Below, one piece after another: positions 7,663 to 31,875 of a DNA stretch of 48,923 nucleotides. The position numbers and the translations under genes were made by a program. The stretch is from Orenia metallireducens (GTDB lineage: Bacteria; Bacillota; Halanaerobiia; Halobacteroidales; Halobacteroidaceae), in the NCBI RefSeq assembly GCF_001693735.1, contig NZ_LWDV01000008.1, positions 471,415 through 520,337 on the forward strand, read 5' to 3'. The first letter of the stretch is position 1, and each line of letters starts with the position of its first letter. The notes beneath the pieces are model-generated. The model was not told where the DNA came from, searched no databases, and was given only the letters and a program-made list of their open reading frames with translations.

Positions 7663-8130
7663 ATGAATCAGGAACAAAATAATTTAATTGAAAGTGCCCG
7701 TCAACAAGCAGAAGGATATTTTAAAAAAGGAGATTATTACTGTTCAGAAGCGGTGTTGACAACTATCAACCAATTATTGGGAGAAGAATTACCACCAGAG
7801 ATTGTAAAGTTGGCTTCAGGATTTCCAGTAGGAATCGGTAAATCAAAATGTTTATGTGGGGCTATAAGTGGTGGAGTAATGGCCTTGGGGTTAAAGTATG
7901 GAAGGACAGAGCCAAAAGCTGAGATGCCAAGTAACTCTTTTCTTAGAAGTGAAGGGCTCCATGATTACATTAAGGATAAGTATGGTTCTACCTGTTGTAG
8001 AGTGATTACTGCTAAGTTTAAAGATTTTGCTAGTCCAGAGAGGGTTGAGCATTGCATTGGGATTACAGGAGATGTAGCTGCTTGGGTAATGAGTAAGTTT
8101 ATTGAAGATGGAGTTTTGATTAATAATTGA
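7663..8130 (+). CDS. C_GCAxxG_C_C family redox protein
   Basis: 155 aa. Conserved cysteines occur in the order YYCSEAV, CLCGAISGG (the GCAxxG-type core), TCCR and EHCIG, typical of the C_GCAxxG_C_C family of small predicted redox or metal-binding proteins; biochemical role unknown. No signal peptide, so cytosolic. Good GAAAGGGG ribosome site. It lies upstream of the selenium genes and such proteins often occur near redox or selenium loci, but a functional link here is only inferred. Confidence 0.8.
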   Translation: MNQEQNNLIESARQQAEGYFKKGDYYCSEAVLTTINQLLGEELPPEIVKLASGFPVGIGKSKCLCGAISGGVMALGLKYGRTEPKAEMPSNSFLRSEGLHDYIKDKYGSTCCRVITAKFKDFASPERVEHCIGITGDVAAWVMSKFIEDGVLINN

Positions 8131-8174
8131 TTAAACTTTCAATTTGAATTAAAATAAATAGGGGTAAAGAATAA

Positions 8175-9133
8175 ATGCCAGAAATTTTGAAACAGGTGCC
8201 AGTATCAATAGCAAGGTTGATGCTTGGTTTAGCTGGTTTAGGTAATCTTATCCAGGTCTATGGTAGTCAATATCGTTATCTAGCTGGAATATTAGCCACA
8301 TTAATAGCTTTACTGCTAATCGCTAATTTCTTTGTTGACAAGGAGGGCTTTTTACCTCAATTAGAGAATTCCATTGTAGCTAGTGTTTTCCCGACCTTCT
8401 CTATGGCAATTATGATTTTAGCCACTTATATAGTTCCTTTTTCTTCTCAAGTAGCTTTGTATTTCTGGTATGGAGGAATTATTCTACATATCTTATTAAT
8501 GGTTTTATTCTCTATTGGCTTTATCTTCAACTTTGATATCAGAAAAGTCTTTCCTAGCTATTTTATCGTTTATCTGGGAATAGTAGTAGCTAGTGTAACT
8601 GCTCCAACCTTTAATTATATACAACTAGGGCAGATAATCTTCTGGGTTGATTTTTCTTTTTATATGGTTTTACTCCCGACAGTCACTTATCGGGTTTTAG
8701 TTATTAGAGAGATTAAGAAGGCTGCTTTACCTACTATCTCTATCTTTACAGCCCCTGCTGGTCTCTGTTTGGCAGGATATATGAGCGTTTTTGCTAATAA
8801 AAATTTGATGATAGTAGGGGGCTGAGTTTATTAACACTAGTTATGATAACCCTTGTTATAATTTATCTTCCTAAAATGATTTCTAGTAATTTTTATCCCA
8901 GTTTTTCTGCTTTTACTTTTCCTTTTGTGATTACAGCTATTGGGTTAAAGTTAGCTTCAGCTTTTTTACAGAAAAACTTTAATCTTCTTTTGCTGTATTA
9001 TCCAGCAAAGGTAGTAGAATTGTTATCAATTGCTCTGGTAGTTTTTGTTCTATTTAAATATTTAGAACACCTATTTCTAGTTAAAAAGCAAGGGGGTTAT
9101 CAACCCTCAGAACTTCAAAGTAATACTGGGTAA
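8175..9133 (+). pseudogene. TehA/SLAC1-like (TDT) transporter, frameshifted
   Basis: Two frames join into one protein of about 319 aa, the usual size of tellurite-resistance/dicarboxylate (TDT, TehA/SLAC1) channels with ten membrane helices. The first frame (8175-8825, 216 aa) holds about seven helices and the motif TAPAGLCLAGYMSVF; it stops at TGA just after a run of five G. The second frame (to 9133) continues with LSLLTLVMITLV and further helices. One extra G at 8817-8822 would restore the full reading frame. It may be a pseudogene, a phase-variable gene or a base-call error. Confidence 0.72.
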
Positions 9134-9249
9134 CCATTTTAAAATTAAGAATAATATTGGTATGAGTAATCAGTAATAAGTATTTAATCTTTTACTAGTT
9201 ACTCTTTATTTATTAAATGTTACTGAACTGATAAAAGGAGTATGGTACT

Positions 9250-10410
9250 ATGATATATGTTAATAATGCTGCTACCACTTGTCCTAAGCCAGAAAGAGTC
9301 TATCAAGCAATCAACTCTTGTATGAGAGAGGTAGGCTATAATCCTGGAAGGTCTGGTGGAGTTGGTATATCTAGAATTGAGAGAGAAATATTTGATGTTA
9401 GAAGTAAGGTTGCCAAGTTAATTAATGCTCCTAATTCTTCAAGGGTTATCTTTACTTCTGGTGCTACTGAAGCATTGAATTTAGGGATAAAAGGAATTTT
9501 AAAACAAGATGATCATGTAATCACCACAGAACTTGAACATAATTCTGTACTACGCCCTTTAAGGAAGTTAGAAAGAAGTAATATGATTGAGTTAAGCATT
9601 GTTCAAGTCGATCAAAAAGGTAGATTGAATTTAAAGCAGTTAGAGGATCAAATCCAAGAAAATACTCGCTTGATAGTAACTACCCATGCTTCTAATGTAA
9701 TTGGAAACGTAATTGATATTGGAAGGATTGGGGAATTAGCCCATCAGAGAGGGATTACCTATCTAGTCGATGCTGCCCAGACAGCAGGTGTAGTTGAGAT
9801 AGATATTGAGGAGATGAAGATAGATTTATTGGCTTTAGCAGGGCACAAATCTTTATATGGTCCTACAGGGATAGGTGCTTTATATATTAAGGAAGGTGTT
9901 GAATTAGATACATTGATAGAGGGTGGAACAGGTAGTGACTCCCTATCTACTTACCAGCCTATTCTCTTACCAGATAGATATGAAGCAGGTACTCTTAATA
10001 CTATGGGGATTATTGGTTTAGGTGCAGGGATTGATTTTTTGATGGAGACTGGAGTTGCTAAGATTAGAGCAGAAGAATTGGAACTAGCTAAGAGGTTTAT
10101 AACAGGGCTAGAGAAAATAGATGATATTATAATTTATGGTGATTTAGATGTGGAAGAGAGAGTGGGGGTTGTAAGCTTTAATCTAAAAGGGATAGCTGCA
10201 GCTGATGTGGCTTATATTTTAGAGAATCAATTTGATATATTGGTTAGAGCAGGATTACATTGTGCCCCTTTACTTCATCAAGCCTTGAATACTAAAGATA
10301 TAGGTATGGTTAGAGTCAGTTTTTCCTATTTTAATACAGAAGAAGAGGTAGATATTATCTTAGATGTTTTATCTAAGATAAGTAAGGATAAGGAGGAGTT
10401 TAGTTTATGA
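9250..10410 (+). CDS. Cysteine desulfurase family protein
   Basis: Class V aminotransferase fold, 386 aa, starting YVNNAATTCPKP. PLP lysine is K200 in LALAGHKSLYGPTG; the catalytic cysteine is C338 in RAGLHCAPL, on a short loop as in group II desulfurases. The family releases sulfur or selenium from cysteine or selenocysteine. Position directly before yedF and close to selD suggests it feeds selenium metabolism, not general Fe-S assembly. Stop overlaps the yedF start by 4 bases (ATGA). Ribosome site AAAGGAGTA. Confidence 0.88.
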   Translation: MIYVNNAATTCPKPERVYQAINSCMREVGYNPGRSGGVGISRIEREIFDVRSKVAKLINAPNSSRVIFTSGATEALNLGIKGILKQDDHVITTELEHNSVLRPLRKLERSNMIELSIVQVDQKGRLNLKQLEDQIQENTRLIVTTHASNVIGNVIDIGRIGELAHQRGITYLVDAAQTAGVVEIDIEEMKIDLLALAGHKSLYGPTGIGALYIKEGVELDTLIEGGTGSDSLSTYQPILLPDRYEAGTLNTMGIIGLGAGIDFLMETGVAKIRAEELELAKRFITGLEKIDDIIIYGDLDVEERVGVVSFNLKGIAAADVAYILENQFDILVRAGLHCAPLLHQALNTKDIGMVRVSFSYFNTEEEVDIILDVLSKISKDKEEFSL

Positions 10411-10973
10411 AAGAACTTGATGTAAGAGGATTAGTCTGTCCTAAGCCGGTAATTGAGACTAAAAAGGCTTTAGAGAAAGATGATGAATTATTGGTATTGC
10501 TAGATGATCAAGTTGCCAAGGATAATGTAATGAAGTTAGCTAAGAAATTAAATTGTCAGGTTACTTTATTAGAAGAAAGCGATGAATATCGGCTAACTAT
10601 TAAAAAAGTTGATGGTATTGTAGATAAAAAAGAAGAAACTAAGGGAAAGGTCTATTTTATTAGTACAGATATCTTAGGAAAGGGTGAAGAAGAGCTCGGT
10701 CAAGCCTTGATGAAGGGATTTATTAGTACTTTGTTAGAAATAAACCCATTGCCAGCTAAGATTATCTTTATCAACTCAGGTGTTAAGATTCCTACATTAA
10801 ATGAGCAGGCTAAGGAGCATTTACAAGAGCTAATAGAGCAAGGGGTAGAGGTTGTAGCCTGTGGAGCTTGCTTGAACTATTATGGCTTAACGGAAAAATT
10901 AGAGGTAGGTACTATTACCAATATGTATGAAATTGTTGAGAGTCTAAATAATGGGGATGTAGTATCATTATAG
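10407..10973 (+). CDS. yedF: Selenium metabolism protein YedF (TusA + DsrE-like)
   Basis: 188 aa in two domains. Residues 1-75 are a TusA/SirA-like domain with the LDVRGLVCPKPVIETKK motif and its persulfide or perselenide-carrying cysteine. Residues about 80-188 are a DsrE/F-like domain with VVACGACLNYYGL. This architecture is the YedF family found beside selD. Translationally coupled to the desulfurase (4-base overlap), so the pair probably transfers selenium or sulfur from the enzyme to a carrier. Confidence 0.87.
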   Translation: MKELDVRGLVCPKPVIETKKALEKDDELLVLLDDQVAKDNVMKLAKKLNCQVTLLEESDEYRLTIKKVDGIVDKKEETKGKVYFISTDILGKGEEELGQALMKGFISTLLEINPLPAKIIFINSGVKIPTLNEQAKEHLQELIEQGVEVVACGACLNYYGLTEKLEVGTITNMYEIVESLNNGDVVSL

Positions 10974-10977
10974 AGAG

Positions 10978-11296
10978 ATATTGTGAAACTTTTACTTTTA
11001 AAAAATAGTAAAATTATTAAAAAATATTTCGGGAAAGCTTATCAGCTTTTTTCCCGAGTGACTTTTGCCATTGCTGCAAAAGTCACCAAAAGGTCTAGAA
11101 AAGAATTAAAAATCACTCAGCAATTAGAGTATTAACTATTATAATTAATCATATGCTTTAGTAAAAATTTGATTAGACTCTAAATTCTAGTTCAATTTTT
11201 GCTTCGCTCAAAGCTCAAACAATAATTCTTTTCATTTTTAAAGACCTTAACTATCAACTATCCACTATACACTGGGGTTTAAAAGTATCGCAATAT
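10978..11296 (+). repeat. Interspersed repeat, copy 3
   Basis: Inverted ends ATATTGTGAAACTTTT (10978-10993) and AAAAGTATCGCAATAT (11281-11296). The interior has an AAGCTTATCAGCTT hairpin, a GACTTTTGC/GCAAAAGTC hairpin, GTCTAGAAAAGAATT, TTTTGCTTCGCTCAAA and TTTAAAGACCTTAACT blocks shared with other copies. It splits yedF from selD and probably makes selD a separate unit. Confidence 0.8.
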
Positions 11297-11362
11297 AGCC
11301 ATAAAGCATCATAGTTAAATGTAATTTAAGAGGTAGATTATTATAAAGGAGGTATAAATAAG

Positions 11363-12406
11363 ATGTCAGATAAAATCAAGTTAACACAATATAGTAAGAC
11401 CTCAGGCTGTGCGGCCAAAATGAGTCCACAGACTCTATCTAAGGTTTTAAATCAGGTTGATTTTAAATCAGAAGATGAGAGGTTATTGGTAGGCTTAGAT
11501 AAGTCGGATGATGCTATTGCCTATCAATTTAGTGATGATAAGATATTAATTCAATCTGTAGATTTCTTTACACCGATAGTGGATGACCCATATTTATTTG
11601 GGCAGATTGCTACTACCAATGCTTTAAGTGATATCTATGCTATGGGAGGAAGACCCTTGTTGGCGATGAATGTAGTTGGTTTTCCCCCTTGCTTAGGAGA
11701 AGAGGTTTTAAGTGAGATTTTACAGGGTGGAGCCGATAAAGTGGCAGAAGCAGGTGCAATTATAGCGGGAGGACATACTATTCAAGATGATGAACCAAAG
11801 TATGGTCTATCTGTAACAGGGGTAATAGAAGAGGGGAAGCTACTTACCAATTCAGCGGTTCAAGTTGGTGATTATCTAATCTTAACTAAGCCTTTAGGAA
11901 TGGGGGTTATCTCTACTGCAATTAAAGGTGGTTTAATTACTGATATGCAAAATCATTCAGCGGTTAAAGCGATGACTACTTTAAATGATAAAGCTGTAGC
12001 TCCAATGCAAGAGATCGGAGTCAATGCCTGTACTGATGTAACTGGTTTTGGTCTCTTAGGTCACTTATGGGAGATGGCTGAAGGTAGTGGTGTTGAGATA
12101 GAGGTCTTTGCTAGTGAATTACCTATCTTTGCTGATGCTTTGGAGTATGCAGAGATGGGACTGATTCCTGAAGGGGCTTACTCTAATAAAAAGCATTTAG
12201 AAGAGAAGGTTGAATTTGCAACAGAGATGGAGCAGAGTATAGTTGATATGTTGTTTGATCCTCAGACATCTGGTGGGTTATTGATTTCGGTCTCTGAGGA
12301 TAAAGTGGCTGATCTATTGATAGAATTATATGCTTTAGGTATTAATGATGCCACTGTGATTGCCAAGGTTAGAGGCCATGGTGCTAAGATCAAGGTTAGT
12401 TCTTAA
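11363..12406 (+). CDS. selD: Selenide, water dikinase (cysteine form)
   Basis: 347 aa AIR-synthase-fold enzyme making selenophosphate from selenide and ATP. N-terminal glycine/lysine loop TSGCAAKMSP has Cys16 where many homologues carry selenocysteine, and catalytic Lys19. Motifs DFFTPIVDDP, GGHTIQDDEPKYGL and GVNACTDVTGFGLLGH are intact. Excellent AAAGGAGGT ribosome site. Followed after 18 bases by the DUF3343 gene. No selA, selB or selC lies in the window, so where the selenophosphate goes (Sec, tRNA 2-selenouridine or labile cofactor) cannot be decided here. Confidence 0.95.
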   Translation: MSDKIKLTQYSKTSGCAAKMSPQTLSKVLNQVDFKSEDERLLVGLDKSDDAIAYQFSDDKILIQSVDFFTPIVDDPYLFGQIATTNALSDIYAMGGRPLLAMNVVGFPPCLGEEVLSEILQGGADKVAEAGAIIAGGHTIQDDEPKYGLSVTGVIEEGKLLTNSAVQVGDYLILTKPLGMGVISTAIKGGLITDMQNHSAVKAMTTLNDKAVAPMQEIGVNACTDVTGFGLLGHLWEMAEGSGVEIEVFASELPIFADALEYAEMGLIPEGAYSNKKHLEEKVEFATEMEQSIVDMLFDPQTSGGLLISVSEDKVADLLIELYALGINDATVIAKVRGHGAKIKVSS

Positions 12407-12424
12407 AGAAGAGAGGTTATAGTA

Positions 12425-12691
12425 ATGGGCTTAAATAATGAATATAATTTGTTAGTCTTCAATTCTACTCATCATGCTTTAGCAGCTGAAAGGGTTTTAA
12501 AAGAAGAGGGGTATAAGATTATGCTGGTACCTGTCTTAGCAGAGATTACTGCTGATTGTGGAATGGCAATTAGAATCAATACTAATTCTAACCCTTTAGA
12601 AATATTAAAGAACCATAAGGTAGAGGTAGCAGGTTATTATAGGGTAACAAAGAAGAATCTAGAAAAGAAGATAATAAGATTAAATAAATAG
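12425..12691 (+). CDS. DUF3343 protein, putative Se/S carrier
   Basis: 88 aa, matching the small DUF3343 family (putative Se/S carrier-like) by its opening YNLLVFNSTHHALAAERVL and ADCGMAIRI motif with a single conserved cysteine. Such proteins are regularly encoded beside selD and desulfurases. Here it is co-directional and 18 bases after selD, so it probably belongs to the same transcript. A chaperone or delivery role for selenium is an inference from context. Confidence 0.8.
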   Translation: MGLNNEYNLLVFNSTHHALAAERVLKEEGYKIMLVPVLAEITADCGMAIRINTNSNPLEILKNHKVEVAGYYRVTKKNLEKKIIRLNK

Positions 12692-12990: not shown

Positions 12991-13065
12991 TTACTCTATA
13001 GTACCTAAGATTAACAAGATAAGAACTAAGAATATAACGAAAGCTCCATTATCTTCATAGCCCAT
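12991..13065 (-). CDS. YjcZ-like sporulation peptide, copy B (24 aa)
   Basis: Shortest member: MGYEDNGAFVIFLVLILLIL followed by GTIE. It lacks the extra Gly/Tyr head seen in copies A and D. GGGAGGTG ribosome site 8 bases before ATG. The hydrophobic segment is nearly identical to copies C and D, so this is a recent duplicate. The gap to copy A is 37 bases, without a terminator. Confidence 0.72.
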   Translation of the reverse strand: MGYEDNGAFVIFLVLILLILGTIE

Positions 13066-13169
13066 CTTTTTCACCTCCCTTTGCTGCTGTACTATAATTG
13101 AAGGAATATCTTCAGTAAGTGTTTTAATAGGATTAGATAATTAAATTGTGAGGATTTTAATACTAGGTG

Positions 13170-13250
13170 TTAGTAATATCCATTAGCACCTAAGATTAGT
13201 AAGATAAGAACTAAGAATATAACAAATGCTCCATTATCTTCATAACCCAT
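13170..13250 (-). CDS. YjcZ-like sporulation peptide, copy C (26 aa)
   Basis: MGYEDNGAFVIFLVLILLIL then GANGYY. AGGAGGTG ribosome site. A block upstream (13277-13304) shared with copy F looks like a mother-cell sigma-factor promoter, so copies C-B-A may form one sporulation transcript. Same predicted one-helix peptide as its neighbours. Confidence 0.75.
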   Translation of the reverse strand: MGYEDNGAFVIFLVLILLILGANGYY

Positions 13251-13276
13251 TATCTTCACCTCCTCTTCACTTGGTA

Positions 13277-13304
13277 TATAATATTCAAAAATCCATTTTT
13301 TGTG
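13277..13304 (-). promoter_or_regulatory. Possible SigK-type promoter before copy C
   Basis: Minus strand reads CAC, 16 bases, then AATATTATA, close to the SigK pattern (AC, 16-17 bp, CATAnnnTA). The same block with identical spacing occurs before copy F (13873-13900). Confidence 0.4.
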
Positions 13305-13402
13305 ATTGAATTATAAAATGTCTAAAAATATGAGCCTATTAGGTAGTCAAATATTCTAAGATTAAATTTTTATAAGTGACATTAGTCTGTTACATATAAT
13401 GT

Positions 13403-13444
13403 AAATATAAAGGTAGGGAAAATATTTTCTCTACCTTTATATTT
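13403..13444 (-). terminator. Terminator after peptide genes F-E-D
   Basis: 21-bp stem with one mismatch (arms begin AAATATAAAGGTAG), immediately downstream of copy D on the minus strand. Confidence 0.8.
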
Positions 13445-13449
13445 GATTA

Positions 13450-13545
13450 TTAGTAGTATCCATTAGCACCTAAGATTAGTAAGATAAGAACTAAGAAGAT
13501 AACAAAAGCCCCATTATCATCATAACTATTTCCGTAATCACCCAT
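13450..13545 (-). CDS. YjcZ-like sporulation peptide, copy D (31 aa)
   Basis: Product: MGDYGNSYDDNGAF, then VIFLVLILLILG and ANGYY. AAGGAGGTG ribosome site. Head resembles copy A, tail matches copy C. It follows copy E after 39 bases and is ended by a strong hairpin, so it is likely the last gene of an F-E-D transcript. Confidence 0.75.
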   Translation of the reverse strand: MGDYGNSYDDNGAFVIFLVLILLILGANGYY

Positions 13546-13584
13546 GAGGTACACCTCCTTATTAAACAATATTGACATTGCTAA

Positions 13585-13677
13585 TTAACATCCTCCATTC
13601 ATAGTACCTAAAATCAATAGGATAAGAATCAAGAAGATAACAAAAGCTTCATTGTCTTTTCCACAGTAGTCACCCAT
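13585..13677 (-). CDS. YjcZ-like sporulation peptide, copy E (30 aa)
   Basis: Product: MGDYCGKDNEAF, then VIFLILILLILG and TMNGGC. Two cysteines flank the membrane helix, one near each end; disulfide cross-linking into a spore layer is conceivable but only a guess. AAAGGAGGC ribosome site. A GGTATATAATATT block, as before copies C and F, lies upstream near 13700 but with shorter spacing to the -35-like part. Confidence 0.75.
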   Translation of the reverse strand: MGDYCGKDNEAFVIFLILILLILGTMNGGC

Positions 13678-13755
13678 TATGCTGTTGCCTCCTTTCTGTT
13701 GGTATATAATATTTATCCATTTTCCCTGATAACGACACTAATATTTTCTTTAGTA

Positions 13756-13842
13756 CTAGCAATCGTTAAAACTACCTAAGATTAATAATATTAGAACTAA
13801 GAAGATAACAAAAGCTTCATTTCCATAGCCACAGTTGCTCAT
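13756..13842 (-). CDS. YjcZ-like sporulation peptide, copy F (28 aa)
   Basis: Product: MSNCGYGNEAF, then VIFLVLILLILG and SFNDC; the most divergent head and tail of the set, again with one Cys at each end. AAAGGAGGTG ribosome site. First gene of the F-E-D group, behind a candidate SigK-type promoter. Confidence 0.75.
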   Translation of the reverse strand: MSNCGYGNEAFVIFLVLILLILGSFNDC

Positions 13843-14433: not shown

Positions 14434-14511
14434 TGTCAAAATAATAAAAATCACATTGATATAATAGCTTTCATACCTTATAATTAACATATACATAACA
14501 TAAAGTTTACA
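14434..14511 (+). promoter_or_regulatory. amt-MCP promoter with triple TNACA operator
   Basis: -35 TTGATA (14456-14461), 17-bp spacer, -10 TATAAT (14479-14484), then TAACA at 14485, TAACA at 14496 and TTACA at 14507, each 11 bp apart and starting at the base after the -10. An upstream TGTCA lies at 14434, 51 bp before the first half-site, as at the glnA promoter. Confidence 0.8.
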
Positions 14512-14525
14512 TTAAAAAGGAGTGG

Positions 14526-16778
14526 ATGGTGTTGAAAAGAATGATGATTTCTGGTGTTTTATTATTGTTAATCTTCTTTATAGTATCTAATACAGTTTGG
14601 GCAGAAAGTGTAGTAAGAAGTGAGGAAGAGGTTGCTATTGATACGGTATGGACTTTGTTATCTGCTTTTTTAGTTTTCTTTATGCAGGCTGGTTTTGCGA
14701 TGGTGGAGGCTGGTTTTACTCAGGCTAAGAATGCAGGGAATATTATCATGAAGAATCTAATGGATTTTTCTGTGGGTTCTTTGATTTATTGGATTTTAGG
14801 GTTTAGTATCATGTTTGGGGTAGGGGGTAAATTTATATCATTTAATGGCTTGTTTTTAAAAGGGGATTTTAGTCACTTGGGATTGGATATTCCATTACCT
14901 GCTTTTTGGTTATTTCAAGTTGTCTTTGCTGGAACGGCAGCAACTATTGTTTCTGGAGCTATAGCGGGTAGGACGAAATTTAATGCATATTTGATATGTA
15001 GTTTGGTGATTAGTGGCTTTATCTATCCTGTAGTCGGTTATTGGATTTGGGGTGGTGGCTGGCTAGGTGATATGATCGATTTTGCTGGTTCTACCGTTGT
15101 TCACTCAGTAGGTGGGTGGGCTGCTTTGGCTGGGGCGATAGTCTTGGGACCGAGGATTGGAAAGTATAATGAAGATGGTTCTGCCAATAAGATTCCAGGG
15201 CATAATTTATTAATGGCTGCTTTAGGTGTATTCATCTTATGGTTTGGTTGGTTTGGCTTTAATGCGGGGAGCACTCTTGCAGGAACTAATTTGGATATCG
15301 CTTCTATAGCCATGACGACTAATTTGGCTGCTGCTGCTGGAGCGAGTTTGGCTTTACTTACTAGCTGGCTTAAATCTGGAAAGGCTGATGTTGGCATGAC
15401 CTTAAATGGTGCTTTGGCAGGTCTGGTAGGGATTACAGCAGGGACAGCCAGTGTCAATGATTTTGGAGCTGTGGCTATAGGTGCTATGGCAGGAGTTGTT
15501 GTAGTTTTTGCAATGGATATGATAGAAGGTTTATATGTAGATGATCCTGTTGGTGCTGTGTCGGTACATGGGGTATGTGGTATTTTTGGAACATTGATGG
15601 TAGGTTTATTTGCAACAGAAGGTGGATTCTTTTATGGAGGGGGGGCTGGGTTATTTCTTATTCAATTAAAGGGTGTACTAGCTGTAGCTCTTTGGACTTT
15701 CTCTCTATCATATATTCTTTTTAAATTAACTGATCTAATCATTGGTTTAAGGGTTTCTAATGAAGAAGAGATAAAAGGCTTGGATATTTCAGAGCATGGA
15801 TCTAGTTCCTATCCTGATTTCGGTTCTTTAAGTGGTAGGGTTATCGAGCAGGTATTGTTAGGGTTGAATAAGATGGCTGAAGGTGATTTCAGTACACAGT
15901 TATTCTTAGATGGCTTAAATGACAGTGAAGATAAATTAATAAATGTCTTTAACAGGACAAACAGAAAGGTTAAAGCTTTGATTAGTGACTTGGCTAAGAT
16001 GATTAATACTTTGACTTCTTGTAGTGAAGAGTTGTCTTCGGTTGTTGAAAAGAGTAATTTGATAGCAGAAAGTACTGTGGTTAATATCGATAGTATGAAG
16101 CTTGGTATCGGTCAGATTTCGGCTGGAAGCCAAGAGGCTAGCGCTCTTTCCCAAGAGGCTGCTTCTAAAACTGAGATTGGTAGTGCTAGCTTAGGAGATG
16201 CTATTTTAAAGATGGAAGAGATAAATGACTCTGTAAAAGTAGGAGTTGGAGCTATCAATCAATTGGTGGGTAATTCTAATGAGATAGGTGATATTGTGAA
16301 GATGATTAATGATATTGCTTCTCAAACAAATCTATTGGCTTTAAATGCAGCTATAGAAGCGGCTCGTGCTGGTGAAAAGGGGCGAGGTTTTGCAGTTGTT
16401 GCAGAAGAGATTCGGATCTTGTCCCGCAATACTAGTCAGGCGACCGATAAGATTAGAGATTTGATAAATGAAACTCAAGTTACTTCTAGAAAGAGTCTAG
16501 AAGCTGTAACTGATGTTGAAGAGAAGGCTTTAACTGGTAAGAATGTTATTGAAAATGCGGGAAGTGTTTTTAGGGATATAGAAAATTGCATCGTTGATGC
16601 AGCCGCTAATATTCAAGCTTCTTCAGATGATGCTCAAGGATTAGTTGTTGTAGGTGAAGAAGTTGAGAGTGGTGCTAATGATATTGCTGTTATGTCTCAA
16701 AAGCTTAGATTATCATCTCGAGAATTAATGTCTTTGGCAGAAGGATTAAAGAGTTCTGTAGATGGTTTTACTGTTTAA
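14526..16778 (+). CDS. Ammonium transporter-chemoreceptor fusion (Amt-HAMP-MCP)
   Basis: 750 aa in one uninterrupted frame. Signal peptide (1-28) and an Amt/Mep domain to about residue 415, with the pore D185 and twin histidines H193 (GSTVVH) and H348 (AVSVHGVCG), so ammonium conduction looks intact; the PII-docking tail [15 protein letters not shown] is kept. From about 438 a HAMP-like segment ([13 protein letters not shown]) leads into a methyl-accepting signalling coiled coil with the highly conserved tip [20 protein letters not shown] (about 601-620). Likely an ammonium-sensing receptor, possibly also a transporter, acting through CheA/CheW. The Amt part closely resembles the amtB at 34352. 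The ribosome site would suit ATG 14526 or TTG 14532. Promoter carries the nitrogen operator. Confidence 0.92.
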
Positions 16779-16811: not shown

Positions 16812-16842
16812 AGGGTCTCTGTTCTTGCAGAGACCCTATTTT
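16812..16842 (+). terminator. Terminator after amt-MCP
   Basis: 10-bp stem AGGGTCTCTG/CAGAGACCCT with 6-base loop, then ATTTTATT. It separates amt-MCP from the nif promoter. Confidence 0.88.
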
Positions 16843-17011
16843 ATTAAGAGGTTATGTTTTGAAGTTTAGTAATTAATATAAAGTTATGATTTAAAGAATT
16901 TGATTTAGAAAAGAGCATTATTGGTTCATTTTATTTTTGTATAATAATGTTAGTTTTTAAAAAAGTTAAGTTGTCTTAGAGAAGATATTCGTGTGAGGTT
17001 CATTTAATAAT

Positions 17012-17132
17012 TAACATATTAATGTAATGTATTTGTAATATATTTGTTATGTTTGTGTTAAGTTTGGTAAAAAAATCTATTTTTTTCTTGACATAGGATA
17101 AAAATAAGATTATAATTAACACATACTTAACA
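17012..17132 (+). promoter_or_regulatory. nifH promoter with phased upstream and downstream half-sites
   Basis: -35 TTGACA (17088-17093), 17-bp spacer, -10 TATAAT (17111-17116). TAACA follows at 17117 and 17128. Upstream, reverse-oriented half-sites TGTAA 17023, TGTAA 17034, TGTTA 17045 and TGTTA 17056 are spaced exactly 11 bp; a TAACA at 17012 is also 11 bp from the first. Such a layout could allow activation from upstream and repression over the start site. Confidence 0.8.
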
Positions 17133-17234
17133 CACAAATGTAAGAATTAGTACTTTGCGATGTTAGATTTGATAAATATCTTGCGTATCATGTTAGATGT
17201 TTATAGATCTTATGTCAGTTTGCTTCTGATTTGA

Positions 17235-18119
<885 letters not shown>

Positions 18120-18158
18120 TTCAGTGCTTTTTAAATATATGAATCGATTACTAGCGGA

Positions 18159-18239
18159 AGTCAGTTAATATTGAGTGTTGATTGATAAAATATTAGAGAT
18201 GTAATATATAGATAAAATATTAGGTAATATTAACTGACT
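18159..18239 (+). other. Long stem-loop between nifH and nifI1
   Basis: Perfect 14-bp arms AGTCAGTTAATATT (18159-18172) and its complement (18226-18239) enclose a 53-base AT-rich loop that has GATAAAATATTAG twice. No T run follows, so an mRNA-stabilising or processing structure that keeps nifH in excess over nifDK is more likely than a terminator. Confidence 0.6.
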
Positions 18240-18279
18240 ATATTGCTATTAACCATTAAACTAAGGGGGTATACAGATT

Positions 18280-18603
18280 ATGAAGATGGTAAGATCAATT
18301 GTAAGACCTGAGAAGGTTAATGAGATATTAGCAGAAGTAAGTGATGCAGGATTTCCAGCTGTTACTAAGATTGATGTAGCAGGTAGAGGTAAGCAAAGAG
18401 GTGTTAAAGTAGGAGATATCCATTATGATGAGCTACCTAAAGAGATGTTATTAATGGTAGTAAATGATGAGGATGTAGATGATTTAGTTAAAATTATCAT
18501 TAGAACTGCTAAAACTGGTGAAGGTAACTTTGGAGATGGAAAGATATTTGTAAGTGAAGTTGAAGAGGCTTACACAATCAGTACTGGTAAAAAAGGCTTA
18601 TAA
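18280..18603 (+). CDS. nifI1: Nitrogenase-associated PII protein NifI1
   Basis: 107 aa PII-family protein. N-terminal MKMVRSIVRPEKV and the short NifI1-type T-loop KVGDIHYDELPKE differ from GlnB/GlnK; the GDGKIFV motif closes the nucleotide site. With NifI2 it forms a complex that blocks NifDK when ammonium rises and 2-oxoglutarate falls (known for methanogens and inferred here). Located between nifH and nifD as in anaerobic group II/III nif operons. AGGGGGT ribosome site. Confidence 0.93.
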   Translation: MKMVRSIVRPEKVNEILAEVSDAGFPAVTKIDVAGRGKQRGVKVGDIHYDELPKEMLLMVVNDEDVDDLVKIIIRTAKTGEGNFGDGKIFVSEVEEAYTISTGKKGL

Positions 18604-18614
18604 AAGGAGGTCTT

Positions 18615-19001
18615 GTGATGAAGGAAGTTATGGCTATTGTTCGAATGAACATGATTAATAAGACCAAAAAAGCTCTTTCTGCAGAAGGTTTTGACTCAAT
18701 GACTTGCCGTAAGGTTTATGGTAGGGGTAAGAAGAAGGTTGATTATGAGTTGATTAATTCACTATTATCTGGAGCGGAGATAGAATCTCCAGAGGTGGCT
18801 GAAGCAGTATCTGAAGGGCATCGTTTGGTTCCAAAAAGGTTAATTACATTAATAGTTAACGATGATGATGTAGAAAAGGTAGTTAATACTATCATTAGTG
18901 TCAATAAAAGTGGTAATGCAGGGGATGGTAAGGTATTTGTTATTCCGGTAACTGGAGCTGCAAGAGTAAGAACAGGAGAGATGGGAGAAGAGGCTATATA
19001 A
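18615..19001 (+). CDS. nifI2: Nitrogenase-associated PII protein NifI2
   Basis: 128 aa, partner of NifI1, 11 bases downstream. Typical NifI2 features: MKEVMAIVRMNMINKTKKAL start, MTCRKVYGRGKKKVDYEL, and a longer T-loop (ESPEVAEAVSEGHRLVPKR) before LITLIVNDDDVEKVV and GDGKVFVIPV. Probably binds NifDK directly in the NifI1-NifI2 complex. AAAGGAGG ribosome site. Confidence 0.93.
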   Translation: MMKEVMAIVRMNMINKTKKALSAEGFDSMTCRKVYGRGKKKVDYELINSLLSGAEIESPEVAEAVSEGHRLVPKRLITLIVNDDDVEKVVNTIISVNKSGNAGDGKVFVIPVTGAARVRTGEMGEEAI

Positions 19002-19034
19002 GGTTATAAGTTTAAACTTTGGAGGTGAACCGAT

Positions 19035-20639
19035 ATGATAGATAATAAAAAATTATTAGATAATTTATTAAGTGCTTATCCTGGTAAATCTATGAAGAAC
19101 AGGAAAGAGCACATGATGGTTAAAGATTCAAATAAAAATGAACAGCATATTATGGCTAATACTAGAACTATCCCTGGTATTATGACCAATAGAGGTTGTG
19201 CTTATGCAGGTTGTAAAGGGGTAGTTTTGGGACCATTGAAAGATGTAGTCCATATTACTCATGGTCCGATAGGATGTTCCTATTATACTTGGGGAACAAG
19301 ACGTCATAAAGGTAGAGCAAAGGATGGTGAGAAGAACTTTATTAGTTATGCTTTCTCTACTGACATGCAAGATCCTGATATCGTATTTGGTGGAGAGAAG
19401 AAGTTAAAACAAGCTATTAAAGAAGCTGTAGAGATCTTTGAGCCTGAAGCAATCAGTATCAGTGCTACTTGTCCAGTAGGATTAATTGGTGATGATATTA
19501 ATGCTGTAGCTAAAGAGGCTCAAGAGAAGTATGGTATTCCTGTATTGGCTTTCAGTTGTGAAGGTTATAAGGGTGTAAGTCAGTCAGCAGGTCACCATAT
19601 TGCTAATAATAATTTAATGGAGCATGTAATAGGAACAAAAGAGAGAGAGCCTAAGAAGAAATATCCAATTAACCTATTAGGTGAGTATAATATCGGTGGA
19701 GATGGATTTGAAATATCTAGAATCTTAGATAAGATTGGTTATGATATTGTCTCTATAATGACTGGTGATGGTACTTTAGAAGAGATTAAAACAGCTCATA
19801 CAGCAGATTTAAACTTGGTACAATGTCACCGTTCAATCAACTATATTGCAGAGATGCTTGAAGAGAAGTTTGGTATTCCTTGGTTGAAGGTAAACTTTAT
19901 TGGAGTACAAGGAACTATAGAGACTCTTAGAAATATGGCTAAATACTTTGATGATGAAGCATTAATTCAAAGAACTGAAGAGGTAATTGAAGAAGAATTA
20001 GGAGAAATCAAAGATCTATTGGCTAAGTATAAAGAGATGTGTGATGGAAATACTGCTTGTTTATTCGTGGGTGGATCTAGAGCTCATCATTATCAGAACT
20101 TATTTAAAGAGATTGGTATCGAGACTGTGGTAGCGGGATATGAGTTTGGTCATCGTGATGATTATGAAGGAAGAGGGATTATTCCAGATATTGAGATGAC
20201 TGCTGATGATAGAAATATTCCTGAATTAACAGTAACTAAGGATGAAAAACGTTATAAATTACGTTTATCTAAAGAGAGATACAAAAAGCTTCAAGAAGAG
20301 ATGCCTTTAGGTGATTATAAAGGTATGATTTCAGAGATGAAAGATGGTCAGGTTATTATAGATGACTTAAACCATTATGAGACTGAAATTATTCTTAATG
20401 CCTTAAAACCAGCTGTCTTTGGTTCAGGAATCAAAGATAAGTATGTAGCTCAGAAGATGGGTATCTTCTCAAAGCAGCTACACAGCTATGACTATAGTGG
20501 ACCATATGCTGGATTTAAAGGTGCTGTTAACTTTGCTAGAGATATATCTGCTGGTATAAATACTCCAACTTGGAATTATATCACAGCACCATGGAAGAAT
20601 GATCCACAAATAGAAGCAGAATTAGGAGGTGCAAGCTAA
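19035..20639 (+). CDS. nifD: Nitrogenase molybdenum-iron protein alpha chain
   Basis: 534 aa. FeMo-cofactor ligands are present: C264 in LVQCHRSINYI and H483 in QLHSYDYSGPY. P-cluster cysteines fall in NRGCAYAGC, GPIGCSYYTW and ATCPVGLIGDD. The sequence style, with NifI genes upstream, fits the anaerobic (group III-like) lineage, and the ligand pattern argues for the Mo enzyme over Vnf or Anf. Stop and the nifK ATG share one base (TAATG). Confidence 0.97.
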   Translation: MIDNKKLLDNLLSAYPGKSMKNRKEHMMVKDSNKNEQHIMANTRTIPGIMTNRGCAYAGCKGVVLGPLKDVVHITHGPIGCSYYTWGTRRHKGRAKDGEKNFISYAFSTDMQDPDIVFGGEKKLKQAIKEAVEIFEPEAISISATCPVGLIGDDINAVAKEAQEKYGIPVLAFSCEGYKGVSQSAGHHIANNNLMEHVIGTKEREPKKKYPINLLGEYNIGGDGFEISRILDKIGYDIVSIMTGDGTLEEIKTAHTADLNLVQCHRSINYIAEMLEEKFGIPWLKVNFIGVQGTIETLRNMAKYFDDEALIQRTEEVIEEELGEIKDLLAKYKEMCDGNTACLFVGGSRAHHYQNLFKEIGIETVVAGYEFGHRDDYEGRGIIPDIEMTADDRNIPELTVTKDEKRYKLRLSKERYKKLQEEMPLGDYKGMISEMKDGQVIIDDLNHYETEIILNALKPAVFGSGIKDKYVAQKMGIFSKQLHSYDYSGPYAGFKGAVNFARDISAGINTPTWNYITAPWKNDPQIEAELGGAS

Positions 20640-22003
20640 TGTCATTGACGCCAAAGAAAGTTACAGAAAGAAGTGGATTGGTAGTAAATCCAGTAAAGAC
20701 TTGCCAACCAATAGGAGCAATGTATGCTGCTTTAGGAATAAATAAATGTTTACCTCATAGTCATGGTTCTCAAGGATGTTGTTCATTCCATAGAATGCAC
20801 TTAACTAGACATTTTAGAGATCCAGTTGTAGCCACTACAAGTTCATTTACTGAAGGTGCTTCGGTATTTGGGGGAAGATCAAACTTAAATACTTCAATGA
20901 AGAATATATGGAAGCTTTATGATCCAGATGTTGTAGCCATTAATACAACATGTCTATCAGAAACAATTGGTGATGATGTAGGGTCTATGGTAGCTGCTAT
21001 GGATATTCCAGAAGGTAAGACTATTATCCATGCTAGTACACCAAGTTATGTTGGTTCACATATTACTGGTTATTCTAACATGGTGCAAGCGATGATGAAA
21101 CAACTTGCTCAAAAGGATGAAGAGGCTAGTAATGATAAAATCAACCTTATCCCTGGATTTGTAGACCCTGGCGATATGAGAGAGATCAAAAGAATCACAA
21201 AATTAATGGGAATTCCATTTACAATGGTACCAGATACTAGTGGAGTAGTAGATTCTCCAATGACAGGTAAGTATGAGATGTATCCAAAGGGTGGAACTAC
21301 TGTTGAAGAGATAAAAGATGCTGGAAATGCTAAAGCTACAATTGCTTTTGGAAGTTTTGCTTCAGCAGAAGGGGCTTTTGAGTTAGAGCGTAAATGTGGT
21401 GTTAAACCTTATGTTTTAAAGACTCCAATTGGAGTTAAAGCAACTGACGAATTCATTATGCAATTAGTTAAGATTACTGGCGAAGAGGTTCCTTATGCTT
21501 TAGAGGAAGAAAGAGGTCAGTTAGTTGATATCATGACAGATACTCATTTCCACTTCCATGGCAAAACAGCTGCTATCTTCGGTGATCCTGATGTAGTGAT
21601 TGCTATGACAGAATTTGTGGTAAGTCTTGGTATGACACCTAGGTATGTTGTAACTGGTACTCCAGGTAAAGAATTCGCACAAGAAATTAATGCTATCTTA
21701 GAAGATGCTGGAGTAGAAGGCACTAAGGTTAAGGGTCCAGGTGATTTATTAGAATTACATCAATGGATTAAAAATGACCCAGTAGACTTATTAATTGGAA
21801 ACACTTATGGAAAGTATATCGCTAAAGAAGAGGATATCCCATTAGTAAGATTTGGATTCCCAATCTTGGATAGAAGTGTTCAAAGTTATTTACCAATTGT
21901 TGGGTACAAAGGTGCTATGAGATTGATTGAAAAGATAAGTGGTGCTTTATTAGATAGAGCAGATAGAGATGCGACTGAAGAGGATTTAGAATTAGTAATG
22001 TAA
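20639..22003 (+). CDS. nifK: Nitrogenase molybdenum-iron protein beta chain
   Basis: 454 aa, the short form typical of strict anaerobes, lacking the N-terminal extension of proteobacterial NifK. P-cluster cysteines in VKTCQPIGA (C22), GSQGCCSFHR (C47) and NTTCLSETIGDD. Coupled to nifD by a 1-base overlap. Together they form the alpha2beta2 dinitrogenase. Confidence 0.97.
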   Translation: MSLTPKKVTERSGLVVNPVKTCQPIGAMYAALGINKCLPHSHGSQGCCSFHRMHLTRHFRDPVVATTSSFTEGASVFGGRSNLNTSMKNIWKLYDPDVVAINTTCLSETIGDDVGSMVAAMDIPEGKTIIHASTPSYVGSHITGYSNMVQAMMKQLAQKDEEASNDKINLIPGFVDPGDMREIKRITKLMGIPFTMVPDTSGVVDSPMTGKYEMYPKGGTTVEEIKDAGNAKATIAFGSFASAEGAFELERKCGVKPYVLKTPIGVKATDEFIMQLVKITGEEVPYALEEERGQLVDIMTDTHFHFHGKTAAIFGDPDVVIAMTEFVVSLGMTPRYVVTGTPGKEFAQEINAILEDAGVEGTKVKGPGDLLELHQWIKNDPVDLLIGNTYGKYIAKEEDIPLVRFGFPILDRSVQSYLPIVGYKGAMRLIEKISGALLDRADRDATEEDLELVM

Positions 22004-22012
22004 CTATTACAA

Positions 22013-22048
22013 GTGGTATGGTGAATCTGGTACATTCACCATACTGCT
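22013..22048 (+). other. Stem-loop between nifK and nifE
   Basis: Arms GTATGGTGAAT and its complement (22016-22026, 22034-22044) without a T run; probably an RNA processing or partial-attenuation element lowering nifEN expression relative to nifDK. Confidence 0.45.
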
Positions 22049-22170
22049 TATAATACCAATCAAATCACCAAATTGTTACCAATTTTAATATAAAAATATT
22101 AAAATTGTCAAATATCTACCTGCTCTACAAATATATCATCACTATTATATATTATAAGGTGGTGAGTCCA

Positions 22171-23532
22171 ATGAGTCAAGGTTCAGAAGTGGGAATGTTA
22201 GATGAAAGAAAAGATTTTATTCTCTGTAACTTTAAGAATAAAGAAAAAAGGTTAAAATGTGATCAAGATAGTGTAGCAGGATCTGTAAGCCAAAGGGCTT
22301 GTGTCTATTGTGGAGCTAGAGTTGTGCTAAATCCAATTACCGATGCTTATCATATAGTCCATGGACCAATTGGATGTGCTAGTTATACTTGGGATATTAG
22401 AGGTAGTTTAAGTAGTGGTGCAGAGACCTTTAGAAATAGTTTTTCTACAGATTTACGAGAGAAGGATATTGTCTTTGGTGGAGAGAAGAAGCTGATTGCT
22501 GCTATTGATGAGATAATGGAGAAGTATAGTCCTAAGACTATCTTTATCTATTCAACCTGTGTAGTAGGTGTAATTGGTGATGACTTAGATGCAGTCTGTA
22601 GAGGTGCTGAGAAGAAGTATGGTATTAGGGTGATTCCAGTACAAGCCCCAGGCTTTGCAGGCAATAAATCTAGTGGTTATAAGGCAGCCTGTCGTGCTAT
22701 GTTAGCTTTAATGGATACTAATCTTGCACCTATTAAGAGAAAGGGAATTAATATTTTAGGGGACTTTAATTTAGCTGGTGAGATGTGGATTCTTAAAGGA
22801 TATCTTGAAAGGGTTGGAATTGAGGTCAATGCTAAATTTACTGGGGATTCAAGCTGTCAGGAGATAATGAAAGCTCCTCAGGCAGAGTTGAATATAGTCC
22901 AATGTGCTGGTTCTATGACCTTTTTGGCTAAAAAGATGAAGGAGAAGTATGATATCCCCTTTGTTAAGATCAGTTTTGTTGGTGTAGAAGATACAATCTC
23001 TTCTTTAAGGGAGATTGCCAAGTTATTAGGAGAAGAAGAGGTTATTAATAATGTAGAAGAGTTGATCAAAGAAGAGAAGGCTAAGATAGAAGAGAAGTTA
23101 GAGTTCTATCGTCAGAGATTAATAGGTTATAGTGCAGCTATCTATGTCGGTGGTGGTTTTAAGGCTATATCTCTAATCAAACAATTTGCTGATTTGGGTA
23201 TTAAGACTGTAATGGTTGGAACTCAGACCGGTAAAAAGGAGGAGTATGATCAGATAAGAGAGCTGACTGATGAAGGTACTATTATCTTAGATGATGCCAC
23301 TCCTACTGAACTTGAGAAGTTTATGAAGGAAAGGGGAGCGGATATCTTGGTTGGTGGTGTTAAGGAGAGGCCTTTAGCTTATAAGCTAGGAGTAGCTTTC
23401 TGTGACCATAACCATGAGAGAAAGCACCCGTTAACTGGTTTTATAGGAGCTGTTAACTTTGCTAAAGAGCTTGATTCTACTTTAAATAGTCCAATTTGGA
23501 AGATTATTGCTAATGAAAGTAGGGGTGAATAG
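22171..23532 (+). CDS. nifE: FeMo-cofactor scaffold protein NifE
   Basis: 453 aa NifD paralogue that with NifN forms the scaffold on which FeMo-co is matured. Conserved cysteines in QRACVYCGARVVLNP, GPIGCASYTW and STCVVGVIGDD; the C-terminal NifD histidine context is replaced (FCDHNHERKHPLTG), as expected for NifE. Start set at ATG 22171 behind AAGGTGGTG; the frame is open for 22 more codons upstream but without a ribosome site. Confidence 0.95.
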   Translation: MSQGSEVGMLDERKDFILCNFKNKEKRLKCDQDSVAGSVSQRACVYCGARVVLNPITDAYHIVHGPIGCASYTWDIRGSLSSGAETFRNSFSTDLREKDIVFGGEKKLIAAIDEIMEKYSPKTIFIYSTCVVGVIGDDLDAVCRGAEKKYGIRVIPVQAPGFAGNKSSGYKAACRAMLALMDTNLAPIKRKGINILGDFNLAGEMWILKGYLERVGIEVNAKFTGDSSCQEIMKAPQAELNIVQCAGSMTFLAKKMKEKYDIPFVKISFVGVEDTISSLREIAKLLGEEEVINNVEELIKEEKAKIEEKLEFYRQRLIGYSAAIYVGGGFKAISLIKQFADLGIKTVMVGTQTGKKEEYDQIRELTDEGTIILDDATPTELEKFMKERGADILVGGVKERPLAYKLGVAFCDHNHERKHPLTGFIGAVNFAKELDSTLNSPIWKIIANESRGE

Positions 23533-23534
23533 AT

Positions 23535-24890
23535 ATGGCTCGTAACTTTGTAAATTTAAATATTAATCCCTGTAAGATGTGTATGCCAATGGGTGCAGCA
23601 ATTGCTTTTAAGGGAATTGAGAAGGCAATTTTGATGATGCATGGTTCTCAGGGCTGTAGTACTTATATAAGGCGACATATGGCAACCCACTATAATGAGC
23701 CAGTTGATATTGCCTCATCTTCATTAACTGAACAGGGGACTGTTTATGGTGGAGAAAATAACTTAAAGAAGGGTTTGAAGAATACAATTGAACTTTATAA
23801 CCCTAAAGTAATTGGTGTAGTAACTACTTGTTTGGCAGAGACCATTGGTGAGGATATTGATAGGTTGGTAACTGAGTTTGTAAAAGAAGAGAATCTTGGT
23901 GATGTAACCTTTGTTCCAGTATCAACACCTGGTTATGGAGGTACAGAGTTTGAAGGCTATTATTTATCACTAAGAAAGATGGTAGAAAGGTTAGCAAGTG
24001 AAGGATCAAATGAGAAGGTTAATATTATTGCGGGAAATTTAACTCCAGGTGATATTAGAAGAATTAAGGATATACTAGAGTCTTTTTCAATTAGCTATAA
24101 TTTATTACCTGATATCTCTGAAACTCTAGATGCTCCTTACTCAAAGGATTATCAAAAGTTACCTGAGGGTGGAACTACAATTGAGGATATTGAGAGTATG
24201 GGTGGAGCTAAAGCAACAATTGAGTTAGGGGTTTTAGTCGATGATAATATTTCTCCTGGTAAGTTTTTAGAGGATGAATTTGGAGTGCCTTTATATAGAG
24301 CTCCTCTGCCTACTGGATTAGCCAATGTAGATAAATTTATCAGTTTATTATCTGAAATAACAGGGGAGAAGCCTAATCTTAAATTGACTCAAGCTCGGGG
24401 AAGGATGTTAGATGCTATGGTCGATTCCCATAAATATAATGCTCAAGGAAGAGCAGCTATCTTCGGGCAACCAGAACTTGTCTATGCTATTGCAACCTTA
24501 TGCTTAGAAAATGGGATTTTTCCTGCATTATTAGCTACAGGTGCTAAGACATCTAAGTTAGAAGAACTTCTAAAGAAGGGTTTTGGATTAGGTGTTGAGG
24601 ATACTTTGATTATAGATGATACTGATTTTGAAACTATTAGAGATTATGTCAATAAATTGGATGTTAATATTTTGATTGGACATTCTGATGGTAATTTTAT
24701 CACTGAAAAGGATGGAATACCTTTAGTTAGAATAGGTTTTCCAATCCATGATAGAATGGGTGCTCAAAGAAGAGTTTATGTAGGTTATGATGGCTCTGTC
24801 AATTTTTTAGATAAGATTACCAATACATTGTTAGAGAGAAAGCATAGTTCTTATCGTGAAGATATGTATGATAAATACTTTGCTGGATAA
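23535..24890 (+). CDS. nifN: FeMo-cofactor scaffold protein NifN
   Basis: 451 aa NifK paralogue, two bases after nifE. Opens with NPCKMCMPMGAAIAFKGIE and GSQGCSTYIRRHMATHYNEP, containing the cluster cysteines, followed by TTCLAETIGED. It is a stand-alone NifN, not fused to NifB or NifX as in some clostridia. Confidence 0.94.
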   Translation: MARNFVNLNINPCKMCMPMGAAIAFKGIEKAILMMHGSQGCSTYIRRHMATHYNEPVDIASSSLTEQGTVYGGENNLKKGLKNTIELYNPKVIGVVTTCLAETIGEDIDRLVTEFVKEENLGDVTFVPVSTPGYGGTEFEGYYLSLRKMVERLASEGSNEKVNIIAGNLTPGDIRRIKDILESFSISYNLLPDISETLDAPYSKDYQKLPEGGTTIEDIESMGGAKATIELGVLVDDNISPGKFLEDEFGVPLYRAPLPTGLANVDKFISLLSEITGEKPNLKLTQARGRMLDAMVDSHKYNAQGRAAIFGQPELVYAIATLCLENGIFPALLATGAKTSKLEELLKKGFGLGVEDTLIIDDTDFETIRDYVNKLDVNILIGHSDGNFITEKDGIPLVRIGFPIHDRMGAQRRVYVGYDGSVNFLDKITNTLLERKHSSYREDMYDKYFAG

Positions 24891-30087: not shown

Positions 30088-30108
30088 CAAAAAGAAGGAG
30101 GCGAGTGG

Positions 30109-31824: not shown

Positions 31825-31875
31825 CAAAACTGGTGTTGGAAAGAGATTTTCAATAAAATAAGTGAGGTGATTTTA

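Follow-up and report, generated by a model that had tools for sequence, protein, structure and literature searches.

The closest described relative of the protein examined here is Ks-Amt5 of Kuenenia stuttgartiensis (PDB 6eu6), an Amt–histidine kinase in which the Amt serves as N-terminal sensor. In the sections of its description that were consulted (PMC5764959), Ks-Amt5 is without a HAMP domain, has a two-ion ammonium site made up of Q24, E31, N47, D50, T51, T109 and T112, and keeps the pore, gate and twin-His residues yet does not transport efficiently. A second solved relative, Sd-Amt1 of Shewanella denitrificans (8qj3, OFF; 8qj4, ON), is a receptor according to its entry title; no paper on it was found in the open-access literature by PDB code or by the name Shewanella denitrificans. 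Excerpts of a 2023 review (PMC10433425) call Mep2 of yeast a sensor, and the consulted part of PMC12918730 presents Amt proteins as sensors as a matter of controversy. Earlier sightings of Amt modules combined with other domains are mentioned in PMC5764959, which cites a 2009 review (Tremblay and Hallenbeck) for them. Our search of the open-access literature, which did not extend to that review, yielded no paper on an Amt-MCP. Nor is such a fusion mentioned in the sections consulted of PMC5764959, PMC10433425, PMC12918730, PMC6978683 and PMC8534201, and the words 'chemotaxis' and 'methyl-accepting' are absent from the main text of the first three. The preliminary description of the gene, whose author was familiar with no characterised Amt-MCP, agrees with this search within its terms.

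The window, by which we mean the whole stretch of DNA analysed (48,923 bp), is on contig C8 of a 3.47 Mb assembly in 12 contigs. It includes an Amt-MCP gene, here named amt-mcp, and the following features:

14456–14502, + strand: promoter-operator module of amt-mcp (TTGATA 14456–14461, 17 bp, TATAAT 14479–14484, direct repeats TTAACA-N5-ATAACA)
14526–16778, + strand: amt-mcp, encoding an Amt channel, HAMP and an MCP signalling domain, 750 aa (open frame, Pfam)
14646–15812, + strand: Amt domain, aa 41–429, with 11 predicted membrane helices (Pfam PF00909, sites, model)
14721–14723, + strand: codon 66, Q in 7/7 Halanaerobiales Amt sensors and R in 135/146 Amts
14967–14969, + strand: codon 148, G in 7/7 Halanaerobiales Amt sensors and E in 132/146 Amts
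15834–15959, + strand: predicted HAMP domain, approximately aa 437–478 (BLASTP to MCPs with a Pfam HAMP, AlphaFold helices)
15960–16775, + strand: MCP hairpin, aa 479–750 (Pfam PF00015, AlphaFold model, one-gap alignment over the full hairpin)
16812–16845, + strand: likely intrinsic terminator, stem AGGGTCTCTG/CAGAGACCCT with a T-rich tail (read by eye)
17088–17134, + strand: the same module, upstream of nifH
17247–24890, + strand: nif cluster, comprising nifH, two small ORFs, presumably PII-like, nifD, nifK, nifE and a nifN-like gene
30018–30064, + strand: the same module, upstream of nifV
30073–31188, + strand: nifV (above the NCBIfam cut-off)
31769–31826, + strand: the same module, ahead of glnA and its small leader ORF
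32090–33421, + strand: glnA, after the small leader ORF
34343–35686, + strand: solo Amt (72% identity with the Amt part of amt-mcp)
35778–36556, + strand: two P-II (GlnK-type) genes (Pfam PF00543)

From ATG to stop, amt-mcp is a single 750 aa frame with zero internal stops. An AAGGAG at 14517–14522 lies only 3 bases before the ATG at 14526, so the true start may be GTG 14529 or TTG 14532. The likely terminator that follows suggests that the gene is probably monocistronic. Pfam Ammonium_transp matched aa 41–429 with 406.5 bits (cut-off 23.2), NCBIfam TIGR00836 (amt) matched the product at 423.9 against a cut-off of 343.3, and Pfam PF00015 (MCPsignal) matched aa 541–704 with 122.7 bits (cut-off 34.6); Pfam returned no match to HisKA or HATPase. 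The conserved tip motif of the MCP hairpin is aa 602–621, 19.9 heptads from the C-terminal end. Thus, the uninterrupted Amt-MCP frame and the full hairpin with a canonical tip claimed in the preliminary description were both confirmed, the frame with exact coordinates. A strict methylation-site consensus was found in one of seven fusions (L088) and not in the amt-mcp product.

An AlphaFold model of the product, built on a 31-row alignment (mean pLDDT 77.8, pTM 0.57), has a helix at residues 2–22 that resembles a signal peptide, 11 long helices within residues 33–405 and short tail helices up to 424. After these come a helix at 437–451, a connector, a helix at 466–614, a tip at 615–620 and a helix at 621–749. 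Confidence in the MCP half is moderate, with ten-residue blocks at approximately 60–70 that fall to 46 near the tip. In a fold search, the Amt part matched the Amt/Mep entries listed with Z scores from 45.8 to 58.8, and the match of the MCP half was weak (3zx6, Z 14.8, rmsd 9.3; an SMC coiled coil, which is unrelated, reached Z 12.9).

Ks-Amt5 was the top structural match of the amt-mcp product (Z 58.8, rmsd 2.1, 392 aligned residues, 41% identity), and loop 5 of the two proteins aligns without gaps; Sd-Amt1 followed at Z 57.5–57.6. By sequence, the nearest solved Amts were likewise Ks-Amt5 (290 bits) and Sd-Amt1 (275 bits), then Af-Amt1 (193 bits). Ks-Amt5 and the amt-mcp product differ in output, which is a kinase in Ks-Amt5 and HAMP plus an MCP hairpin in the amt-mcp product, and the MCP part of the latter had no match in Sd-Amt1 at E 0.001. 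Outputs other than MCP also follow the Amt in an Amt-GGDEF protein (L200), two Amt-histidine kinases (L205 and L194) and an Amt-PAS-SpoIIE protein (L100), all of which have cytoplasmic signalling domains after the Amt. The first three (L200, 868–2883; L205, 1483–3801; L194, 1501–3684) are from the class of Vibrio sinus; the genome with L194 also carries the Vibrio sinus Amt-MCP, and L200 matches Sd-Amt1 over 8–449 only (E 1e-20). On our best reading, the amt-mcp product is a further type of Amt-based sensor in the manner of Ks-Amt5, one with a chemotaxis output.

The equivalents of the seven Ks-Amt5 ammonium ligands in the amt-mcp product are Q54, E61, N77, D80, F81, T140 and S143, so five of seven are kept, with T51 replaced by F81 and T112 by S143. 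Sd-Amt1 carries the same seven-residue set, as read from the alignment. However, the set QENDFTS is present in 105 of 146 Amts, solo Amts included, and does not mark sensors; the five kept residues are common to most of the non-fused Amts examined, which questions their specificity for sensing and suggests that most of the Ks-Amt5 'sensor' site may be a subfamily trait. The solo Amt of the window also ranks Ks-Amt5 and Sd-Amt1 first. Closeness to Ks-Amt5 thus gives no specific support for sensing, and the kept site or a long loop 5 was dropped as proof of a sensor, as solo Amts carry this set as well and have these PDB sensors as their top matches.

The tested pore residues are all present. 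In E. coli AmtB numbering, D160, H168, H318 and F107 correspond to D185, H193, H348 and F134 of the amt-mcp product, and F215, W148 and S219 to F245, W175 and S249; the pore Asp and twin His, said at the outset to be kept, are indeed present. None of the seven Halanaerobiales sensor Amts has lost a tested pore, gate or twin-His residue, except that S249 is N in the SpoIIE fusion. A paired change, R66 to Q together with E148 to G, occurs in 7/7 of these proteins and in 0/12 of their solo paralogues, 0/13 other solo Amts and 0/8 other sensor Amts; a single change at one of the two sites was seen in 2/13 of the other solo Amts. By the helix order of the model, sites 66 and 148 would lie in cytosolic loops 1 and 3. 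These loops are where the C-terminal tail acts in known Amts. The pair is a new finding and would lie on the cytosolic face. Across the alignment it occurs in 8 of 146 rows, the eighth being a 473 aa Amt frame (L033) that is the sole carrier outside the Halanaerobiales sensors.

Between the two halves, no Pfam HAMP match was obtained in the amt-mcp product even at E 10. In BLASTP, residues 432–750 align with residues 237–554 of an MCP from an Orenia relative (L192), and residues 442–750 align with residues 320–627 of an MCP from the genome that contains the window (L102), each at 42% identity with one gap; the Pfam HAMP positions in these two MCPs are 245–281 and 309–355, respectively. HAMP was matched in three of the seven fusions of the alignment used as a profile (A1), the best at 5.9e-5, and the matches directly after the Amt tail (L026, 5.9e-5; L199, 6.1e-4; L137, 5.3e-3) were all below the Pfam cut-off. 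Homology to Pfam-positive MCPs and the AlphaFold helices together point to a HAMP domain here, which bears out the HAMP-like segment of the preliminary description although Pfam is negative. The claim made there that a PII docking tail is retained holds at the level of sequence: the C-terminal tail GLRVS..E..GLDI.EHGS.SYPDF is common to the amt-mcp product and solo Amts.

Both aligned MCPs are dCache chemoreceptors. They share HAMP and the MCP hairpin with the amt-mcp product, but their sensor is a Cache domain and its sensor is a channel. From the two alignments we infer that the Amt replaced a Cache sensor and its membrane helices and was joined directly before HAMP.

Amt-MCP genes are not confined to the source cell. 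When the seven-fusion profile was used to survey the order, full-length stop-free Amt-MCPs were found in 6 of 13 genomes (G000, G006, G007, G003, G005 and G305) and the fusion was not found in the other seven. The amt-mcp product is 90% identical to an Orenia metallireducens Amt-MCP and 62% identical to that of Halonatronum saccharophilum. Three full-length fusions (L004, L005 and L026) were among the 80 stretches listed of at least 593 that matched. In drawn genome samples, with at most two candidates per genome scored, Amt-MCPs were present in at least 2 of 398 genomes from the phylum and at least 4 of 369 from the class of Vibrio sinus. In roseobacters, they are carried by plasmids of Phaeobacter inhibens and of Tritonibacter mobilis (at least two records for the latter, one with a frame of 814 aa), with both domains above Pfam cut-offs. 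The Pseudomonadota examples, L026 (Vibrio sinus), G523, G583, G525, L137 (Phaeobacter inhibens pP88_b) and L211 (Tritonibacter mobilis), have the same domain order, and in each the Amt and MCP domains exceed the Pfam cut-offs. The architecture thus turns up both in Halanaerobiales and, among Pseudomonadota, in gammaproteobacteria and roseobacters. Of phage records, 21 matched the amt-mcp query, none covering more than 80% of it.

Pairwise comparison with L004 gave dN/dS values of 0.039/0.627 for the Amt part, 0.052/1.293 for the junction and 0.056/1.016 for the MCP part, and dN was far below dS in all three parts for both L004 and L086; for L005, the MCP part gave 0.498/1.595. As six genomes carry the gene and dN is far below dS across the junction, amt-mcp is not a frameshift artefact, and the stop or frameshift between the Amt and MCP parts that would have undone the preliminary description was not found. 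On sequence grounds, the Amt-MCP architecture is real, conserved and recurrent.

An Amt tree of 47 rows was built from 46 author-chosen rows of a 146-row quick tree and the window protein, which replaced a cut copy of itself; before the quick tree, 17 short or duplicate rows and one contained row had been dropped. In it, the Amt-PAS-SpoIIE protein L100 forms one clade with the six Halanaerobiales Amt-MCPs (98/96), which is nested within a clade of Halanaerobiales Amts (99/96). The Amt part of amt-mcp therefore derives from the local solo Amt lineage, a relationship that has been newly found here. The five gammaproteobacterial and Phaeobacter Amt-MCPs in the tree (L211 is in neither this nor the MCP tree) have Amt parts of another clade and group with Amt-GGDEF and Amt-histidine kinase proteins (100/100). 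Forcing all 11 fusions into one clade against the 36 other rows costs 201 log units (p-AU 2.7e-58), and a single origin of all Amt-MCPs was rejected for the Amt part. The MCP tree (46 rows after short and contained rows were dropped, with the window protein present as the cut locus L144) also unites the six Halanaerobiales fused MCPs (100/98), with the dCache MCP L192 as their sister (99/94), but one clade of all 11 Amt-MCPs stays compatible with it (p 0.17), on long branches. Separate origins of the Halanaerobiales and Pseudomonadota Amt-MCPs are thus well supported by sequence for the Amt half only.

Path lengths read from the Amt tree for three genome pairs are 2.1 to 3.4 times longer for the fused Amt than for the solo paralogue: 0.10 versus 0.05 from G000 to O. 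metallireducens/G007, 0.29 versus 0.085 for G000–G006 and 0.50 versus 0.20 for Halonatronum/G003–G005. Longer paths together with the joint loss of R66 and E148 are as expected of a repurposed channel. The Amt-PAS-SpoIIE protein (L100, 1477–4290 in G001:C17) is a phosphatase-type fusion of the same family, and the position of its Amt inside the Amt-MCP clade suggests that a single sensor Amt may have exchanged its output domain.

Downstream of amt-mcp, nifH (likely start ATG 17292), nifD, nifK, nifE and nifV all scored above curated NCBIfam cut-offs, and the cell does, as had been supposed, have nitrogen fixation genes. The nifN-like gene (23535–24890) is under the cut-offs of both nifN and nifK, and the gene past it has Radical_SAM and Nitro_FeMo-Co domains, as in NifB. 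The two small ORFs at 18280 and 18615, which we take to be PII-like, had no NCBIfam match at 1e-30. Further along, past nifV, glnA is followed by an NAD-synthase gene, the solo amt and the two P-II genes. A solo Amt is found on the same contig as the fusion, 1 to 19 kb away, in all six genomes. At the Halonatronum locus no nif gene was found among the genes of the 15.8 kb neighbourhood, and its order, with names assigned by recognition, is presumably an asparagine-synthase-like gene, amt-mcp, glnA, nadE, amt and PII.

The promoter-operator module that precedes amt-mcp is present upstream of nifH, nifV and the glnA leader in the same layout and phase. Four full modules were found in the window and none in 100 shuffles, and six in the 3.47 Mb genome against none for a reversed control, though the patterns were shaped on sites already seen and the shuffle controls overstate independence. 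The two sites outside the window precede genes for SBP_bac_3 solute-binding proteins of transporters, one of them followed by what we take, by recognition, to be a permease gene. Thus, one newly found module stands at six genomic places, amt-mcp and nifH among them. The repeat motif, which was drawn from the amt-mcp and nifH sites so that these two are not independent, occurs at 10 sites in the window with up to three mismatches (0.40 expected) and at seven sites in the genome with up to two (two for the reversed control). One of these seven repeat-only matches, at C9:297736, lacks a preceding −10 box and is followed in the 3 kb locus by no ORF of 80 aa or more. The module layout also precedes the orthologues L004, L086, L005 and L088, and was not found in the 200 bases before the Amt-MCP gene of G305 (L148). 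The repeats lie over the −10 and start region, which would suit a repressor, and in the form TTAACA-N5-TTAACA we take them to resemble Bacillus PhoP boxes. As the module is common to amt-mcp and nitrogenase, production of the sensor probably coincides with a shortage of fixed nitrogen, and the module may answer to nitrogen supply.

Chemotaxis genes are present in the genome. Three CheW-family matches were found, one of which is CheA (Hpt, P2, dimer, ATPase and CheW domains) and two CheW, with the gene order cheW, cheA, cheY-like, cheB; CheR is at C5:123226 and two flagellin matches are on C7. The search for cheA and cheW suggested in the preliminary description thus did not return a genome without chemotaxis kinases. 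MCPsignal gave 37 matches at E 0.001; as some genes are matched in two pieces, these amount to approximately 30 MCP genes.

We propose that the amt-mcp product is a chemoreceptor that senses ammonium directly and is produced under nitrogen limitation, from the same promoter module as nitrogenase, and put the probability of this reading at roughly 0.72. Ammonium as the ligand, the coupling path, control of CheA, the sign of the response, adaptation and control of the module by nitrogen are the parts of it that go beyond the sequence. In a Cache-type chemoreceptor, the sensor domain and membrane helices would have given way to a copy of the local ammonium channel, the join being just before HAMP. 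Ammonium bound at the periplasmic vestibule, or entering the selectivity filter or pore, would shift the cytosolic loops and C-terminal tail of the Amt, and this movement would pass through HAMP and the MCP hairpin to CheA activity and the flagella. CheR and CheB could provide adaptation, and the likely response would be attraction to ammonium. The module common to nifH, nifV and glnA predicts the timing of sensor production and gives a simple link between nitrogen fixation and movement. A chemotaxis kinase would also be a quick and sensitive readout, so that the signalling of channel mutants (Asp, twin His, R66/E148) could be assayed separately from growth.

The nearest competitor, to which we give a real but minor chance, is a transceptor in which the fused Amt goes on conducting ammonium while its transport cycle gives rise to the signal, a scheme proposed for yeast Mep2. 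Such a protein would fit the tested pore, gate and twin-His residues kept in the seven Halanaerobiales sensor Amts, save S249 in the SpoIIE fusion, but Ks-Amt5 has the same residues without efficient transport according to the consulted sections of PMC5764959. A full solo Amt is also at hand nearby with glnA and PII genes, and the branches of the fused Amts are longer than those of the solo ones. We think it rather unlikely that the protein is a nitrogen-status receptor, in which docking of PII to the Amt tail would let the MCP sense the nitrogen state of the cell, outside ammonium being secondary. The tail is kept up to YPDF as in solo Amts, the window has two P-II genes and the nif cluster two ORFs that are presumably PII-like; however, in the model the HAMP helix starts at 437, five residues past YPDF (429–432), where docked PII may clash.

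Less probable again is an output other than taxis, such as gene control or type IV pili, driven by the MCP part via CheA. MCP–CheA systems with other outputs are known, but the sole CheA among the three CheW-family matches sits in a cheW, cheA, cheY-like, cheB order and flagellins are present. That the gene is a functionless chance fusion or assembly error, for which its absence from 7 of the 13 genomes of the order might speak, is highly improbable: six genomes carry Amt-MCPs and, being independent, exclude an assembly error, selection across the junction is purifying, the module precedes five of the six genes, and Pseudomonadota also have Amt-MCPs.

For a direct ammonium chemoreceptor, assembly is not obvious and poses a structural puzzle: the Amt is a trimer, and it would have to drive an MCP, which is dimeric and functions in groups of three dimers. 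Since a solo Amt (72% identical in this genome) lies 1 to 19 kb away in the six genomes, 2:1 mixed trimers are an attractive idea. In a tentative extension, which we consider more doubtful than the chemoreceptor reading, channels would have become chemoreceptors more than once; two Amt-MCPs and one solo Amt would form a heterotrimer with exactly one MCP dimer, or two Amt-MCP trimers (six chains) one trimer of dimers; re-wiring to HAMP would be marked by the joint loss of R66 and E148; and the sensor would be made only alongside nitrogenase, so that a diazotroph would swim to ammonium rather than fix nitrogen.

Other genes of the window were noted in passing. Upstream of amt-mcp, selD is found within 7663–12691, among small genes that are presumably of sulfur/selenium type. 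Just upstream of amt-mcp, on the minus strand at 12991–13842, are five tiny related ORFs (24–42 aa) with a core like AFVIFLVLILLILG, which look to us like YjcZ-type sporulation peptides. Beside the P-II genes, a minus-strand dCache_3-HAMP chemoreceptor gene (36562–38429) has its signalling domain spread over two frames and is apparently broken.
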